From: a bacterium
GTDB lineage: Bacteria > Cyanobacteriota > Vampirovibrionia > Gastranaerophilales > Gastranaerophilaceae
Assembly: GCA_017559905.1 (NCBI GenBank)
Contig: JAFYQF010000015.1
Span: 124,001 to 188,000 of the forward strand
Length of the DNA: 64,000 nucleotides
Direction: 5' to 3'
The position numbers and the translations under genes were made by a program. Positions 1 through 7,084 of the stretch are shown here, one piece after another. Below the pieces are notes generated by a model. It was not told the origin of the DNA and ran no database searches. It saw only the letters and a list, made by a program, of their open reading frames with translations. Numbering within the stretch: the stretch's first letter is position 1; each line of letters begins with the position of its first letter.

Positions 1-1367
1 GCAGAAGCAATTCTGTGTTGAATATTTATGCCTTCTTTGATTTCAACCGCATCAACCCCCAACTGCTCTAATGTTTTCATTGCAAGGCAAGTTGGCTCTG
101 ATGTTAGCGCTAGTAACATATGCTCGGATTCTATACGTGTTTTGTTTTCGTTTTTTGCAAGTTCCCAAGCTTTTTCTAAAACTCTTTTTGCACGTTTTGT
201 AAAAACAATTTCTTTATCGAAATATTCGTTTCCAAATCCTATAATTTGCTCAACTTCTTTGCGTGCATCTTTTATATTGATTTCCAGTTCATTCAATACT
301 TGAGCCCCAAGTCCTTGAGCTTCTCCGATAATGCCAAGTAAAAACATTTCTGTACCGACAATATTTCTGCCAAGCCTTCTTGCTTCTTCTTTTGCTAGTC
401 GCAATATTGTCAAAGTTTCTGGCATTTGCTTTTCGATAGGCTTGATAATTGAGTGTGCAACATCATCGTCGTTAATTTTCAATTCTTTAAGAATATCGTA
501 TGCAATGCCTTTTTTTGCTTTAAGTACTCCTAACACAATATGTTCAGGTAATACGACTGAAGAACCAAGTTCTTTTGCTGTTTGAAGCGCCAAATTCATT
601 GTTCTAAAAGCATTTGGTGTGAAAATTATTTGGCGGTTTTCGTATTCAGCTTGTCTCGATTGGATGCCTGAAAGTTTTTCTTCAAATTTGTCGGCTGTAA
701 TTCCGTAATCTGATAAAATTTGCGATAGTTGAGAGTTTTTGTCTTCTAAAATAGAAGAAATTATTTGCTCTGTGCCTAAAATTTCGTAATTTGATGCTGA
801 TAATTTAGCGACAGCACGTTCAAAAACTTTGATGGATTCTTCGCTATCGAAAATTGCATCAGTTTTTGCTGAATTGTTTGGTTCTATTTCTTTGTTGTCG
901 TCAACTTCAGGGTGATATAACCCTTTTGACTTTCTTTGTACTAACTTTTCAAGAAGAATTTTTGATTTTACAACATCAAAACCTAATTTCTCTAAGATTC
1001 TAACATTGTTCGATTTTCTATCGTTTACGACAGAAAGGAATAAATGTTCGTACAGAATTGTCTGGTTGCCAGATTTGTTAGCCAAATCAAGTGCATTCTT
1101 AAGCAACTCTTTCAAGTGAAGACTGAACACAGGCGTTTTATCAGTGCTGATATTTTTGTTAATATTCAGACTTTCTTTTATTTCTGCTAATAAGTCGTCG
1201 TATTCAATATTGTAGCTTTTGAATATCTTTTGCGGAACACCTTTTGCCTCTATAAATAATGCTAATAACAGGTGCTCTGAAACTATATTCGCAGAATGCA
1301 TTTCATTCGCACATTTTTGCGCTGTACTAACTACATTTATTGCCTTTTCCGTAAACTTTTCTAACAA
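1..1367 (-). CDS. clpC: ClpC-like protein, N-terminal part with three tandem Clp_N modules (runs off the left edge)
   Basis: I translated the minus strand by hand from a TTG start at 1367, which follows a GAGG ribosome site by 8 bases. The start aligns with the conserved ClpC beginning (M-F/L-E-R/K-F-T-E-K-A). About 455 codons are visible with no stop. They contain not one but three Clp_N-type double repeats, roughly residues 1-145, 178-310 and 311 onward. The third is the most ClpC-like (AKEEARRLG, then GTE-x-x-LLGIIGE). Family knowledge: Clp_N domains bind substrates and adaptors for a AAA+ unfoldase that feeds ClpP. The AAA+ modules are not in the window, so a non-ATPase Clp_N protein cannot be excluded. 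It is the last visible gene of a minus-strand operon, 27 bases after the DUF1292 gene. Confidence 0.85.
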   Translation of the reverse strand, partial: MLEKFTEKAINVVSTAQKCANEMHSANIVSEHLLLALFIEAKGVPQKIFKSYNIEYDDLLAEIKESLNINKNISTDKTPVFSLHLKELLKNALDLANKSGNQTILYEHLFLSVVNDRKSNNVRILEKLGFDVVKSKILLEKLVQRKSKGLYHPEVDDNKEIEPNNSAKTDAIFDSEESIKVFERAVAKLSASNYEILGTEQIISSILEDKNSQLSQILSDYGITADKFEEKLSGIQSRQAEYENRQIIFTPNAFRTMNLALQTAKELGSSVVLPEHIVLGVLKAKKGIAYDILKELKINDDDVAHSIIKPIEKQMPETLTILRLAKEEARRLGRNIVGTEMFLLGIIGEAQGLGAQVLNELEINIKDARKEVEQIIGFGNEYFDKEIVFTKRAKRVLEKAWELAKNENKTRIESEHMLLALTSEPTCLAMKTLEQLGVDAVEIKEGINIQHRIAS

Positions 1368-1393
1368 AATTTCTTCCTCTTTGTTTGTGAATA

Positions 1394-1687
1394 CTAAACT
1401 GTTAAACCGTCATCTTCGTCTTCATCTTCTTCTAAAGATTGGATGTAAGCTTCAACTTTATCGAATTCTTCATCATCTTCGATAGTTTCGAATAGATAGT
1501 CTTCACCATCTTTAGTTAATCTCATAAGAACGATTTCACCATCTTCACTGTTTTCTTCTTCAGCTTCAGCAGGAAGTAATAGTGCGTATTCTTTGCCTTC
1601 AACTTCTACGATGTCATAAAGTTCAAAGTTGATTACGTTCCCGTCTTCGTCAACTGTTTCAATTAATTGTCTTTCTTCGTTTTCCAT
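1394..1687 (-). CDS. DUF1292 family protein (YrzB-like)
   Basis: A 97-residue, very acidic protein. The pattern D-E-D-G-N, a beta-rich core with V-E-V-E-G-K-E-Y-A-L-L-L-P and a C-terminal run of Asp and Glu is typical of DUF1292. In Firmicutes this family sits beside ruvX (yrrK-yrzB), as it does here, 23 bases downstream of ruvX. Its function is unknown. The ribosome site AAGGAG precedes the ATG. The acidic C-terminus (EEDEDEDDG) could mimic nucleic acid or contact a Clp partner, but that is speculation. Confidence 0.85.
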   Translation of the reverse strand: MENEERQLIETVDEDGNVINFELYDIVEVEGKEYALLLPAEAEEENSEDGEIVLMRLTKDGEDYLFETIEDDEEFDKVEAYIQSLEEDEDEDDGLTV

Positions 1688-1710
1688 TGTTTTCTCCTTT
1701 ATGTTTTTGT

Positions 1711-2115
1711 TTATCTTTTACGACTAAGGTATTGTTCCAGTATAATACAAGCACTCTCAATATCAACCAAACCTTTGTTTTTTTTGAAATCAATTTTCTT
1801 ATTTCGTAAATTTTCTTCTGCCGTGTCAGAGGTTAATCTTTCATCTTCAAAAATTATTTCAAATCCTTGAATTTTTGATGCAAAGGTTTTGCAGTCTTCA
1901 GCTTGAGAGCCTTGAGTGCCATCCATGTTGTATGGAACTCCTACAACGATTTTTTCTACACGATTTTCTTTTGCTATTTTTATTATTTCTTCTATAGCTT
2001 TTTCTTCTGGTTGACGTTGAATGCAAGAATGCCCGTTTGCAAGCATTAAAAGAAAGTCGCTTAAGGCAACTCCAATTCTTTTTGTACCTACATCTAACGC
2101 CATAACTTTATACAT
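1711..2115 (-). CDS. ruvX: Putative pre-16S rRNA nuclease / Holliday junction resolvase RuvX (YqgF)
   Basis: 134 residues, the normal length for RuvX. Visible motifs are the N-terminal D-V-G-x-K-R-I-G-V-A-x-S-D, G-V-P-x-x-M-D-G-x-x-G near residue 58, D-E-R-L-T-S near 92 and the C-terminal D-x-x-x-A/S acidic site. The family has an RNase H fold; it was named as a Holliday junction resolvase homologue and acts in maturation of the 16S rRNA 5' end. The start overlaps the stop of the upstream 533-codon gene by 8 bases, so translational coupling is likely. Confidence 0.93.
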   Translation of the reverse strand: MYKVMALDVGTKRIGVALSDFLLMLANGHSCIQRQPEEKAIEEIIKIAKENRVEKIVVGVPYNMDGTQGSQAEDCKTFASKIQGFEIIFEDERLTSDTAEENLRNKKIDFKKNKGLVDIESACIILEQYLSRKR

Positions 2116-3709
2116 TTTGCACCCACCTGTTTTCGATTAGTTTGATAATGTAATCAAGTTCATTCAAGCTGAATTTCCCGTTATTTAGTTCAGTGTTGAA
2201 TTTTAGTGCAAAATAGTATTCATATATGCTTCTTTTCAAAATGTTTTTGAAAAATTCTTGTTTCATATCTTCGTTGTTATAAAGTGCAAAAATAAGTTCA
2301 GCTTCTTGTTTTCTATCTGTTAAAAGTTTTAGATATGCACACATAATAAGTCTTTCACTCCAAATTTTATATTCTTCTTCATAAAATATTGTGTGCAAGT
2401 TATCTTCAACAACTTTGTCAAAATCAAGTTTGTATTCTTGTTTGAGAAGTTTTGAATTTAGTGAATTGAACATATTTTCGGTTTCGTCGCTATAGTTGTA
2501 ATCCAAAAACCAATGTTGGGTGAACTCGTCATTTGTTAATGTTTCAAGTTCTTTGGTTGTTAGTTCAATATTTTTGATATTTTTAGTAACGTTCTGTTTT
2601 AAATCTGTATCGTCAGGTTCGATATCTGCTAATAAGTTTTTCCAGCAAATATATTCATAAGGGAATTTGTCTGACAATCTTTCAGCATTAATTAAAATAG
2701 CCTTCAGAGCTTCTGGTGAAATCTTTAAAACAGGTTCATCCTGATAAAATCTTTCAATAATTTTGTCGCATTCGAATTTCGAAATATCGTTAAATCCGAA
2801 ACAATCTTTAATTCCGTTGTAATCATCAATTACTACCGCAACAAATTGTATTCTTTCGTTATCTTTTTCTCTTGTGAATATAAGAGCTTGATTTCCGTGT
2901 CCGTCAGGATATGTTAGACAAAATACGTAGGGTTTAGTGTCTGATAGCAATTTTTTATAAAACTCGTGGGTGTTATCTTCTCTAATCCCTGCAAGTTTTA
3001 GTTTTGAAAGATTTCTCTTTATTGCGGGTTGAATATCTTCTTTTGCATATTTTATAGATGCATCTAGTGCGTGATATGCTAGTTGTGAACGACTGTCGCC
3101 TAATAGTTCTAGTGCAGTTTTGCCTTCTTCAGAATAAGGGTTAGCCAAAAATACTGGCGCTAAAATGTTTGCAAGGGCATCTTCTGTGTAGTCGTTGCCT
3201 AATGATTTTAGCAATGTTATTTTATCATTAGGGTTAAGTGAGTTTACAAAATCTAAAAAATCTATCTGAACTTCAGGGTTAATAATTGCGTTTGCAAGTA
3301 ATAATTGAGTGTCATGATCAATCAGTTCTTCTTCGTTTTGTAAAAATTGCCCGCATTCATCGTAAGAAAGATTTGAATCTAAATCTCTTAAAAAATTAAG
3401 TGCAACAATTTTTGTTTCGTTTGAAACGTGATTGTTTTTTAGTAAATTCCAAAGGTGTGCTGTTAACTCCTCTTTTGGCGCAAATCTTTCTAATAAAATT
3501 CTTAAAATGTATTCATTTGAGTTGTTTGCGTTGTAAAGCTCTTTGTAAAGAATTTTTGTTATAGTTTTTTTGTCAATTTGCGCATCAAGCACTTCAACAT
3601 TAAGGTTTTTCAAATCAGCAATATCTTTTAGGTCGCTGAATCTTTTAATAATGTTTAGAATTAATGTCTTGAGTTCAAATGGATTTAATTGTTTTCCAAT
3701 GTCTGTCAT
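2108..3709 (-). CDS. Uncharacterised helical (HEAT-like) protein in the clp-ruvX operon
   Basis: 533 residues, not recognised. Residues 1-250 are a succession of leucine-rich amphipathic helices that resemble HEAT or ARM repeats. Around 262-345 there is a more beta-like module containing Y-P-D-G-H-G-N-Q-A and D-D-Y-N-G-I-K-D-C-F-G. The C-terminal third is again helical and acidic. There is no signal peptide or membrane segment, so it should be cytoplasmic. It overlaps the zinc-finger gene upstream by 4 bases and ruvX downstream by 8 bases, which ties its expression to both. A scaffold or adaptor role would suit helical repeats, but no function can be assigned from sequence. Confidence 0.8.
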   Translation of the reverse strand: MTDIGKQLNPFELKTLILNIIKRFSDLKDIADLKNLNVEVLDAQIDKKTITKILYKELYNANNSNEYILRILLERFAPKEELTAHLWNLLKNNHVSNETKIVALNFLRDLDSNLSYDECGQFLQNEEELIDHDTQLLLANAIINPEVQIDFLDFVNSLNPNDKITLLKSLGNDYTEDALANILAPVFLANPYSEEGKTALELLGDSRSQLAYHALDASIKYAKEDIQPAIKRNLSKLKLAGIREDNTHEFYKKLLSDTKPYVFCLTYPDGHGNQALIFTREKDNERIQFVAVVIDDYNGIKDCFGFNDISKFECDKIIERFYQDEPVLKISPEALKAILINAERLSDKFPYEYICWKNLLADIEPDDTDLKQNVTKNIKNIELTTKELETLTNDEFTQHWFLDYNYSDETENMFNSLNSKLLKQEYKLDFDKVVEDNLHTIFYEEEYKIWSERLIMCAYLKLLTDRKQEAELIFALYNNEDMKQEFFKNILKRSIYEYYFALKFNTELNNGKFSLNELDYIIKLIENRWVQNV

Positions 3710-3984
3710 CTTCTAGCTTTCCCCCAGAATGCATCAAGTATCTGTTGTGCATCTGCTGATGGCATTCTGTCATTAAGTATTAAGTATTGTACAGCTATCA
3801 TTGCGCATTCTGAACAAATGTTAACGCCTGGACCTTTTACCATTTTTAATACTTGGGTATTTGGTCTTCCGCAGAAACTACAGTAAACAGCTTCGAAATC
3901 TTTAGAATTGTCTTTGCTGTCTTCTTTTGATTTTTGTGAATGTTCGCGTTTTCCGCCTAATTTGATTACTTTTTCTTCAGACAT
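3706..3984 (-). CDS. Stand-alone ClpX-type zinc-binding domain protein
   Basis: 92 residues. Residues 32-70 match the ClpX N-terminal zinc-binding domain: C-S-F-C-G-R-P, then a V-x-x-M-V-x-G-P-G-V stretch, then I-C-S-E-C, giving a C4 zinc site. Authentic ClpX is about 420 residues with a AAA+ module; here the chain ends about 25 residues after the zinc domain. A lysine-rich leader precedes the domain. The ribosome site AGGAGA lies 7 bases before the ATG. It is the first gene of the operon that leads to the ClpC-like gene. In ClpX this domain dimerises and binds adaptors and substrates; an adaptor role here is an inference. Confidence 0.85.
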   Translation of the reverse strand: MSEEKVIKLGGKREHSQKSKEDSKDNSKDFEAVYCSFCGRPNTQVLKMVKGPGVNICSECAMIAVQYLILNDRMPSADAQQILDAFWGKARR

Positions 3985-4102
3985 TGTTTGTCTCCTGTGT
4001 TTGTCGAAACATGTTTATTTTGAGATAAACCATTACCAACTAAAATAGTTTACATGGACGGTTTATATTTTATATGTTAATTGTAACTTAAATTTATAAA
4101 AT

Positions 4103-4131
4103 TTGCCAAATATTTATGGTTAATTTATAAT
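4103..4131 (+). promoter_or_regulatory. Sigma-70 type promoter for the TPR lipoprotein-lgt unit
   Basis: TTGCCA at 4103-4108, a 17-base spacer and a consensus TATAAT at 4126-4131, about 38 bases upstream of the ATG at 4170. The region between 3985 and 4169 is AT-rich and must also hold the divergent promoter of the zinc-finger operon, which I could not place with confidence. Confidence 0.7.
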
Positions 4132-4169
4132 TACATTTACAACAGTTAATATAAGAGGACAAAGAGCAG

Positions 4170-4769
4170 ATGAAAAAAGCACTATTATTGGTTAGTGTAT
4201 TATTTATTTCAGTCGTTTCAACGGCATGTATTAACAAGTTTGCAGTTCAGGAACTTAACAATAAAGCTAAATCATATATTGAACAGGGTGATTACCAAAA
4301 CGCTATAGAACGTTTGAAGTCTAGCGTTGATTTGGATGAAACTGTTTTTGAAACACATTACAATCTAGCCGTAGCTTATACTCAAGCTGAAGACTACGAA
4401 AAAGCTATTACTTCATATAAAAAGGCGATTGAGCTTAAACCAGATTTTGCAGATGCTTATTATTCTTTAGCAGTTGCTCAAGAAAATTGCGCTGCTGATT
4501 TGGCTAAAGGTAGATTGAAAGTTAATGGAGATCTTACAATTGTAAAAGTTTCAGATGAAGAATTGTCTAAAATGGACAAATTGTCTTATAACGAACAAAC
4601 TGAATCTACGATTGTAGCTTTAATGGCTGATTCTGTTAAAAATTATAATTTATACCTTGAAAAAGGTCAGAATGTTTCTGATAAAGACGAAGTTAGTGAA
4701 AAAATTAAGTCATTAATTGAAGAAACCGAGTCTGGTAAATATTTACAAACTGATAAAGTTGTGAGATAG
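4170..4769 (+). CDS. TPR-repeat lipoprotein
   Basis: 199 residues. The N-terminus is a lipoprotein signal: M-K-K, a hydrophobic stretch and the lipobox V-S-T-A-C with Cys at about residue 20. Two clear TPR units follow (N-x-A-x-x-Y-I-E-Q-G-D-Y-x-x-A, then Y-x-L-A-x-A-Y near 65-110), then a helical tail. It should be a membrane-anchored scaffold outside the inner membrane. It is 3 bases from lgt, the enzyme that lipidates such proteins, which suggests a shared transcript. The ribosome site AGAGGA lies 12 bases before the ATG. The specific partner is unknown. Confidence 0.85.
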   Translation: MKKALLLVSVLFISVVSTACINKFAVQELNNKAKSYIEQGDYQNAIERLKSSVDLDETVFETHYNLAVAYTQAEDYEKAITSYKKAIELKPDFADAYYSLAVAQENCAADLAKGRLKVNGDLTIVKVSDEELSKMDKLSYNEQTESTIVALMADSVKNYNLYLEKGQNVSDKDEVSEKIKSLIEETESGKYLQTDKVVR

Positions 4770-4772
4770 CTT

Positions 4773-5573
4773 ATGATTTTTGCTTCACCTGGAGATGTCG
4801 CATTTAATGTGTTTGGATTTCCAGTGTATTATTATGGTATTATTCTAGCTGTTTCGTGCCTTTTAGCAGTGGTTGTTGCTAGATATTTGTATCAGTTTAT
4901 ATATTCTGATAATAAGGCTCAAAAGTTATGGGATGTTGCGCCGTTTGTTGTTATTCTAGGGATTTTGGGTGCAAGATTATATTATTGCCTTTTGAATGTT
5001 GGAGATTATATAGCTAATCCACTTGGTATTTTTATGATTAGAGAAGGTGGATTATCTATTCATGGCGGTATTATTGCAGGTGTTTTAGGGTTGTATATAG
5101 CTTCAAAAAGATATGAGATACCTTTTTTGCGTTTATTAGATGTGTTTTCTGTTGGGACTATTCTTGCACAGAGTTTAGGCCGTTGGGGAAATTTTTTCAA
5201 TAATGAAGCTTTTGGTATCCCTACTGATGGTTGGTTAAAGTTGTATATTCCCGAAGCTTCAAGACCTGAATATTTTGCGAAGTTTGAATATTTTCATCCA
5301 ACTTTTTTGTATGAAAGTGTTTTGAATTTTTTACTATTTGTTATTTTGATTTTTGTTATAAAAAGATTTGGCGTAAAATTTGAGGGGCTAACTTTCGGGT
5401 TATATTTGGCTTTGTATTCTTTAATAAGATTTTTTATTGAGGGTATAAGATTGGATAGCGCATTGAATGTTGGCGATTTTCATATAGCACAGATTATTTC
5501 TGTGTTGATATTCGTGGTTTCGTTGCTTTTTCTAGTGTGTTTGTTGGTTAAATCAAGAAATCTTTCAGATTGA
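4773..5573 (+). CDS. lgt: Prolipoprotein diacylglyceryl transferase
   Basis: 266 residues, the usual Lgt length. It moves the diacylglyceryl group of phosphatidylglycerol onto the lipobox Cys of prolipoproteins in the inner membrane. About seven hydrophobic segments are visible. Family signatures are G-G-L-S-I-H-G-G near residue 90 and G-R-W-G-N-F-F-N-N-E near 135 (family form G-R-x-G-N-F-x-N), plus L-I-R-F-F-I-E-G-I-R towards the C-terminus, which carries a conserved Arg. Only a weak ribosome site precedes the ATG, which lies 3 bases after the upstream stop, so translation probably follows from the lipoprotein gene. Confidence 0.96.
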   Translation: MIFASPGDVAFNVFGFPVYYYGIILAVSCLLAVVVARYLYQFIYSDNKAQKLWDVAPFVVILGILGARLYYCLLNVGDYIANPLGIFMIREGGLSIHGGIIAGVLGLYIASKRYEIPFLRLLDVFSVGTILAQSLGRWGNFFNNEAFGIPTDGWLKLYIPEASRPEYFAKFEYFHPTFLYESVLNFLLFVILIFVIKRFGVKFEGLTFGLYLALYSLIRFFIEGIRLDSALNVGDFHIAQIISVLIFVVSLLFLVCLLVKSRNLSD

Positions 5574-5597
5574 TTTTTGGCGGTTTTGTTTTATAAT
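5570..5597 (+). promoter_or_regulatory. Promoter placing the start site at or beside the MFS start codon
   Basis: TTGATT at 5570-5575 overlaps the lgt stop codon. A 16-base spacer leads to TATAAT at 5592-5597. Only seven bases separate the -10 element from the ATG at 5605, so transcription would begin at about the start codon and give a leaderless mRNA. No Shine-Dalgarno sequence is present there. Confidence 0.6.
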
Positions 5598-5604
5598 TCT
5601 GCTT

Positions 5605-6777
5605 ATGAAAGACGCCGAAATGAAAAAGAACCCCATATTGTGGCTTGACGGTGCACATTTTATTAATGATGTGTATACTGGTATGCTTAACCCTATAATG
5701 CCGTTTATTGCTACAAAATTGTCAATATCGATGGCTTTTGCTACGATAATATTAAGTTTGTCACATATATGCGCCTCACTTCTTCAACCGTTGTTTGGTT
5801 TTTGGGCAGACAACATTGTAAAGAGAATTTTTATATTTTGGGGGTTAATATTTACTTCGATTTTTATATCAATTGCGCCTGCTTCAAATGAGATATTTAT
5901 ACTCATATTGTGTGTTATTCTTGGTAGTTTAGGTTCTAGTTTTTTTCACCCGCAGGCGTTAGGGTTAGTTGTTCGATTTGCAGAGAATGACGTTGCTAAA
6001 ACTATGGGAATATTCATTGCGTTAGGTTCTATAGGTTTTTCTATAGGCCCATTAATGTCAGCGGCTGTGGCCCAATACTGGGGACTTTCTCAAATGCCGG
6101 TTTTGTGTTTGCCAGGTTTGGCAGTTGCTTTATTGATGTTTAAATTTGTTCCTAAAATTAGAGTTTCTGAAAATGATAAGTCTGATTTGAAATTTATGGC
6201 TGCCTTAACTGATATTTGTAAAAATAGGAAGTTAAGACTTTTAATTGTAATGGCAATGTTGAAAACTTTGATTTCTACCTCGTGTTTGATATTGTTACCT
6301 TTCTTGTGGCAAGGTCTCGGATATGAACCTTTTTATATTGGCTGTATTTTGTTCGCTTTTATTTTTGCTGGTGGAATTGGGTCTTTTTTAAGCAGATCTT
6401 TAGAGAAGAAATTAGGAACTCAAAATGTGTTTTATATTTCAATGATTTCAACTTTACCATTAATGTTTTTGTTTGCTTTGACATATAAAAATTTGCCTGT
6501 AATGTCTGAAATTATATTCGTTCTTATTGGATTTCTTACTATGCTTGCACAACCTGTTATGATGGTTATGGCACAGAGTGTTTTGCCTCAATATAAAAGC
6601 ATTATGGGTGGATTCATAAATGGTTTTTCTTGGGGTGTTGTTGCTATTTTGATGTCAGTAATTGGTTTTGTTGCGCAGGCAAAAGGTATTGTTCCAGTAT
6701 TGTTGGTTATTTCTGTTATACCAGCAGTATTGTCGTTCTTTGTAATAAAACACCTATTCAAGAAAGTTGATGAATAG
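5605..6777 (+). CDS. MFS transporter, fosmidomycin-resistance (Fsr)-like
   Basis: 390 residues with about 12 predicted membrane spans. Signatures resemble the Fsr branch of the major facilitator superfamily: an early H-F-I-N-D, then S-L-L-Q-P-L-F-G-F-W-A-D at the loop 2-3 position, and G-S-L-G-S-S-F-F-H-P-Q-A near residue 110. It is probably a proton-driven efflux pump of the inner membrane; the substrate is unknown. An in-frame ATG at 5620 is an alternative start, but it has no ribosome site either. A terminator hairpin overlaps the 3' end of the reading frame. Confidence 0.85.
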   Translation: MKDAEMKKNPILWLDGAHFINDVYTGMLNPIMPFIATKLSISMAFATIILSLSHICASLLQPLFGFWADNIVKRIFIFWGLIFTSIFISIAPASNEIFILILCVILGSLGSSFFHPQALGLVVRFAENDVAKTMGIFIALGSIGFSIGPLMSAAVAQYWGLSQMPVLCLPGLAVALLMFKFVPKIRVSENDKSDLKFMAALTDICKNRKLRLLIVMAMLKTLISTSCLILLPFLWQGLGYEPFYIGCILFAFIFAGGIGSFLSRSLEKKLGTQNVFYISMISTLPLMFLFALTYKNLPVMSEIIFVLIGFLTMLAQPVMMVMAQSVLPQYKSIMGGFINGFSWGVVAILMSVIGFVAQAKGIVPVLLVISVIPAVLSFFVIKHLFKKVDE

Positions 6778-6799
6778 GTGCTTTATTGTTTTATTTTTT
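6751..6799 (+). terminator. Terminator overlapping the end of the MFS gene
   Basis: The arms CACCTATTC and GAATAGGTG flank a 12-base loop at 6751-6780 and are followed by a T-rich tract to 6799. The stem lies inside the last codons and the stop of the MFS gene. Confidence 0.75.
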
Positions 6800-6808
6800 T
6801 ACTAAACA

Positions 6809-7084
6809 CTACGCAAAGGTATTAAAAGAGTTTTTGATTTCCATTTCTTGATGCTTTTTAGCCCATTTTTCTTGTAGGCTTGCTAATTTGTAAAGCAAAC
6901 TGTGTGATGCCAAGTCTAAACTTAATTTTTTATCCATGGCATGTAACATTGTTAAATTGTTTTCTCCCCCAAACGTATTGTTAGAAACTGCGTTGCTCAT
7001 TTGTGAGTAACTTTGCATAATGCCAAACGCAGCATTGTTCATGCTTTTTGCCGCATTAAATCTAGCAATAGATGAAACTAACAT
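6809..7084 (-). CDS. Small lineage-specific protein of unknown function
   Basis: 91 residues, not recognised. It begins M-L-V-S-S-I and is rich in Asn, Ser, Ala and Met, with A-A-F-G at residue 18 and N-N-T-F-G-G at 36. A helical, charged C-terminal half ends in N-S-F-N-T-F-A. A good ribosome site (GAGGG) lies just before the ATG. There is no signal peptide. A short hairpin (GTGTTC, loop, GAACAT) lies in its leader at about 7103-7122. The Asn-rich N-terminus with F-G motifs resembles other unknown proteins in this window. Confidence 0.65.
   Translation of the reverse strand: MLVSSIARFNAAKSMNNAAFGIMQSYSQMSNAVSNNTFGGENNLTMLHAMDKKLSLDLASHSLLYKLASLQEKWAKKHQEMEIKNSFNTFA

Follow-up and report, generated by a model that had tools for sequence, protein, structure and literature searches.

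A gene at the left edge of the analysed DNA, a stretch of 64,000 nucleotides from a Gastranaerophilaceae genome (hereafter the window), was found to encode an ATPase-free protein of 461 amino acids with three Clp_N modules, which is kept under purifying selection throughout nearly the whole order Gastranaerophilales, non-photosynthetic members of the cyanobacterial lineage that live in the gut. The protein is a putative motor-less accessory of the ClpC/ClpP system, a role to which we give about an even chance.

Extent of the gene and domain composition

The reading frame is open for 455 codons within the window (3–1367, minus strand) and begins with TTG in the ORF translation, with residue 1 being L, M or V among the homologues. 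The original prediction was of a ClpC-like gene with three tandem Clp_N modules, either a ClpC carrying additional modules or a protein lacking AAA+ domains, and it called for the contig to be extended. In the assembly beyond the window the gene closes soon after the window edge and past the third module: its end lies 21 bases outside, the last six codons and the stop occupying G000:C14:123982-124002, and the full gene of 461 amino acids spans G000:C14:123982-125367. At its 3′ end it shares 8 bases with tilS, from the ATG of the latter onwards. The parts of the protein are as follows.

3..1367 (6 codons and stop outside the window), minus strand: ATPase-free triple Clp_N protein, 461 aa (assembly, Pfam, homologues)
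936..1367, minus strand: Clp_N module 1, residues 1–144 (module HMM, model, site alignment)
855..935, minus strand: linker between modules 1 and 2, residues 145–171, mostly of low model confidence (alignment, model)
906..914, minus strand: HPE motif, residues 152–154, invariant in 56/56 homologues (alignment)
432..854, minus strand: Clp_N module 2, residues 172–312, the most divergent from ClpC (HMM, model, tree)
15..431, minus strand: Clp_N module 3, residues 313–451, the most ClpC-like (HMM, site alignment)

Pfam Clp_N matched six stretches of the protein (E 3.1e-52), and in the scan of the organism's own genome each of the six half-repeats singly exceeded the curated Clp_N cut-off. The half-repeats pair into three modules (1–144, 172–312 and 311–451) with iE values of 1.6e-43 to 3.4e-54 against a module HMM, scores which are descriptive rather than independent as this HMM was trained partly on these three modules. 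Both searches thus bear out the prediction of three modules within the visible 455 codons. The prediction that the third alone looks like canonical ClpC also agrees with the result, in that module 3 is the most ClpC-like at 47% identity to the N-domain of the organism's own ClpC, whereas modules 1 and 2 reach 32% and 24%, respectively.

The label of a ClpC-like gene, on the other hand, was wrong. Of the parts that define ClpC, the Clp_N double repeat is present (three times) and the two AAA+ ATPase domains and the middle domain are absent; no AAA+ match was obtained with Pfam in the 461-aa protein and no Walker A pattern in any of 56 homologues. The true clpC lies on a separate contig and encodes 839 aa with Clp_N, two AAA+ regions and a UVR motif, neither of the latter being found in the triple protein. 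A ClpC with extra modules was rejected on extension of the contig, since the gene terminates after module 3, and of the two options the ATPase-free protein is the one that stood. A histone-fold profile also scored above its cut-off at residues 393–421, within module 3, which reads as a chance helical match. An assembly joint or frameshift fusing separate genes was likewise rejected: the homologues, of 447–477 aa, share an identical order of parts throughout Gastranaerophilales, and all 56 that were aligned have the same architecture.

Distribution and evolution of the triple Clp_N protein

A survey of related genomes, also suggested originally, showed that homologues across Gastranaerophilales keep the three-module length and order. 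The best match was below 1e-80 in 186 of 192 genomes of the order, a few of these being cut by contig ends. The six exceptions are G117, where a contig end truncates the locus; G134, whose genome of 1.5 Mb has module 1 alone in a 143-aa gene (L097:2113-2544, minus strand); and G007, G016, G026 and G190, none of which gave a full-length match. G007 has a completeness of 99% and is in the same genus as G013, which carries the gene. The best 80 loci in a named genome collection belong mostly to Candidatus Gastranaerophilales/Melainabacteria, the rest being titled ‘uncultured bacterium’ with a few other titles. Among the matches listed from cyanobacteria and from the other orders of the class that were sampled, none was full length; nearly all were to module 3, at about 38–49% identity and mostly in ClpC-size frames.

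A quick tree built from 87 modules placed module 2 and module 3 each in a single clade with an SH-aLRT support of 100; module 1 formed one group at a support of only 61. The three-module protein is therefore most likely older than the split of the sampled families, as judged from these module clades. The dN/dS ratio was approximately 0.02–0.2 where it could be computed, dS being saturated in many comparisons, and the gene is under purifying selection.

A phage or plasmid origin found no support. No relative was confirmed in the scan of viral contigs, and the tblastn matches to phages and plasmids never reached 60% identity; many fell repeatedly on a single stretch of about 430 bases, and those with an annotation were mostly ClpC genes.

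Predicted structure and ligand-site residues

The AlphaFold2 model (41 sequences; mean pLDDT 77.8, pTM 0.47) shows the modules as helical repeats, with better confidence for modules 1 and 3 than for module 2. The linker at approximately 145–171 is mostly of poor confidence and the relative placement of the modules is uncertain. Helix 300–314 of module 2 is almost continuous with helix 316–331 of module 3. In the model a predicted-flexible linker connects module 1 to a unit of modules 2 and 3 joined by near-continuous helices. The best Foldseek matches in the PDB were ClpC N-domains (A. thaliana ClpC1 and B. subtilis ClpC), with ClpT2 (4y0c) and ClpC2 (8b9o) lower in the list.

For the comparison of ligand sites, B. 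subtilis numbering was placed on the organism's own ClpC by way of known motifs, which we take to correspond. The N-domain of this ClpC then served as the reference for 56 homologues at positions characterised in the ClpC of S. aureus and of B. subtilis (PMC12583610), where the phosphoarginine (pArg) sites and K85 of the N-domain control ClpC activity. It should be noted that many of the 56 homologues are close relatives; 26 alignment rows cover six families of Gastranaerophilales.

In module 1, residues T6, K8 and E31 correspond to T7, R9 and E32 of B. subtilis/S. aureus ClpC; the T7 type and the R9 type (as K) are kept in 56/56 homologues and E32 in 52/56. The second site of this module is degraded, with S or D at the T81 position in most homologues and R83 lost. 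In module 2 the T7 column is a gap, and T81 is retained in all 56. In module 3, T7 is lost (mostly M), position 81 is T or S, R83 and K85 are each found in 55/56, and E106 is E in just 28/56. At the Y80 position every module has F, in 46–56 of the 56 homologues. No module type holds complete T7/E32 and T81/E106 sites across the homologues; by this alignment the site residues appear partitioned, the T7/R9/E32 type in module 1 and the T81/R83/K85 type in module 3. The site glutamates alone say little, because ClpB has them too. Two further motifs were noted. HPE is invariant in a linker whose other positions vary, and a loop of module 3 reads [ILVMT]-G-[FYL] in 47/56 homologues (I/V/L-G-F/Y in most) where the ClpC N-domain has IGR.

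Gene neighbourhood and Clp equipment

Upstream of the triple Clp_N gene, the window contains the following genes.

3706..3984, minus strand: stand-alone ClpX-type C4 zinc finger protein, 92 aa, first gene of the cluster (profile match, context)
2108..3709, minus strand: 533-aa protein (cluster context)
1711..2115, minus strand: RuvX/YqgF Holliday junction resolvase, 134 aa (cluster context)
1394..1687, minus strand: DUF1292 protein, 97 aa, upstream neighbour (cluster context)

In the nearer genera the order is zinc finger, 533-aa protein, ruvX, DUF1292, triple Clp_N gene, tilS and hpt, and most of this order was present at 11 of 31 full-length loci as counted by reading. The 533-aa protein, for which no Pfam or NCBIfam match was obtained, stays beside ruvX across these genera. 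In deeper lineages the triple Clp_N gene has a different gene context, and its function is therefore independent of the ruvX/tilS cluster; no clp gene was present there among the ten neighbouring genes scanned. A defence system was considered and rejected, as PADLOC gave no defence-system profile match.

Aside from ClpC, the genome encodes ClpX and two full-length ClpP proteins, and a ClpB-size frame with two weaker Clp_N matches lies on a third contig. The ClpX-type zinc finger profile matched twice in 20 of 21 sampled genomes, in a frame of approximately 290–450 aa, which fits ClpX, and in one of approximately 90–120 aa. ClpS was detected in none of 26 genomes (the organism's own and 25 relatives), with five control genomes positive, and within the class it was found in families f8 and f13 only. 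Replacement of ClpS by simple complementarity is unsupported, since several families of the class have neither ClpS nor the triple protein. The McsB (arginine kinase) profile matched neither this genome nor any of the control genomes.

Comparison with known Clp_N proteins

Stand-alone Clp_N proteins are already known, namely plant ClpT and mycobacterial ClpC2, and these may be taken by analogy as precedents for motor-less Clp_N accessories. ClpT proteins are plastid proteins with one module per chain, whereas the present protein has three modules and an invariant linker motif. The plant and algal ClpT1/ClpT2 nevertheless resemble it in having the Clp_N fold without AAA+, and they are ClpC/ClpP accessories (PMC7966870, PMC4243950); ClpT1 binds Hsp100 partners and modulates ATPase activity (PMC4243950). 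ClpC2 is similarly an ATPase-free partial ClpC homologue with a ClpC-N-type domain, and sequesters an N-domain ligand (PMC10030653). It differs in combining one Clp_N domain with a dimerising, non-homologous N-terminal four-helix part, which the triple protein lacks, its modules occupying residues 1–451 save for the linker. The protein differs from both in its three diverged modules, in having an invariant motif in the linker and in being retained across the order.

Repeated Clp_N outside ClpABC is also seen in the vWA ternary conflict systems, where ClpN repeats are fused to vWA proteins in conflict operons (PMC7159879); the triple protein is unfused and without a PADLOC match. The poly-Clp_N proteins of family f8 likewise have several modules per chain and no AAA+, but their number varies from 2 to 9 and in the tree they belong to neither the module 2 clade nor the module 3 clade. 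Locus L116 encodes a nine-module chain of 1640 aa and a three-module chain of 548 aa (452-5371 and 5337-6980, minus strand), L118 a chain of 1188 aa with seven modules adjoining clpC (2152-5715, minus strand), and L114 shorter Clp_N-only chains with two modules. No paper on such a protein from Gastranaerophilales came up among the literature results listed, an absence that is weak evidence.

Possible roles of the protein

Clp unfoldase N-domains help to decide which proteins are degraded. As an accessory of ClpC/ClpP, the triple protein would be unable to unfold anything itself, and would present several Clp_N surfaces at once for ClpC-N-type ligands, namely substrates, adaptors or the middle domain of ClpC; bound clients would then be handed to ClpC or withheld from it. 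The original suggestion that extra modules widen the choice of substrates or adaptors remains plausible, with any such effect necessarily in trans because the chain is without a motor. The accessory role is supported by the three motor-less modules, their fold match to ClpC N-domains and, lower in the ranking, to ClpT2 and ClpC2, the precedents of ClpT1 and ClpC2, the conservation across the order, a dN/dS well below 1, the partitioned site residues, and a genome with ClpC, ClpX and two ClpP but no ClpS match. Counting against it are the lack of clp genes among the ten neighbours scanned in deeper lineages, the uncertain module arrangement indicated by the pTM, and the families of the class that are missing ClpS without having the triple protein. 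In the organism's own lineage, the triple Clp_N and ClpX-type zinc finger genes share one cluster. That free-standing ClpC-type and ClpX-type N-domains (the triple protein and the zinc finger proteins of about 90–120 aa) together form a trans adaptor set replacing ClpS-type adaptors in Gastranaerophilales is an unlikely extension of the accessory role.

Whether clients would be delivered or withheld bears on a fairly unlikely alternative, a ClpC2-like decoy or anti-adaptor whose modules would capture those peptides, adaptors or antibiotics which otherwise bind the ClpC N-domain and derail it. Mycobacterial ClpC2 acts in this way (PMC10030653), module 3 is the closest copy of the ClpC N-domain, and F recurs at the Y80 position in every module. 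A decoy would be expected to carry a whole ligand site, yet modules 1, 2 and 3 have each lost part of it, and the dimerising part of ClpC2 is missing from a chain of Clp_N modules and linker only. A delivering adaptor is the more likely of the two, because the modules are not three copies of the ClpC N-domain but have diverged, with different parts of the ligand sites retained in each.

The fold match to ClpT2 and the two full-length ClpP genes would also suit a ClpT-like subunit docking on the ClpP ring and controlling its assembly or ATPase docking through the I/V/L-G-F/Y loop of module 3. The loop tripeptide, in the wider form [ILVMT]-G-[FYL], recurs in 47/56 homologues but is not invariant, and a motif this short easily arises by chance. 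This reading is quite improbable. Somewhat better placed, if still doubtful, is a role outside proteolysis, for instance as a scaffold or regulator reusing the Clp_N fold; ClpN repeats are also known as fusions with vWA proteins in conflict systems (PMC7159879). The neighbours are housekeeping genes which vary by lineage (ruvX, tilS and hpt here; elsewhere cysteinyl-tRNA synthetase, a class II tRNA synthetase, Mur ligase and NIF3), and are consistent with it. The retention of ClpC-type site residues and the lack of a defence-system profile match argue against it.

If the accessory role is correct, the protein would be a novel means of supplying ClpCP or holding it back in nearly a whole order without ClpS in the sampled genomes, and mutations could be aimed directly at its partitioned ligand sites and at the HPE motif of its linker, which is invariant. 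Taken with the longer poly-Clp_N chains of family f8, the protein suggests that the use of detached Clp N-domains extends beyond the single-domain ClpT and ClpC2.
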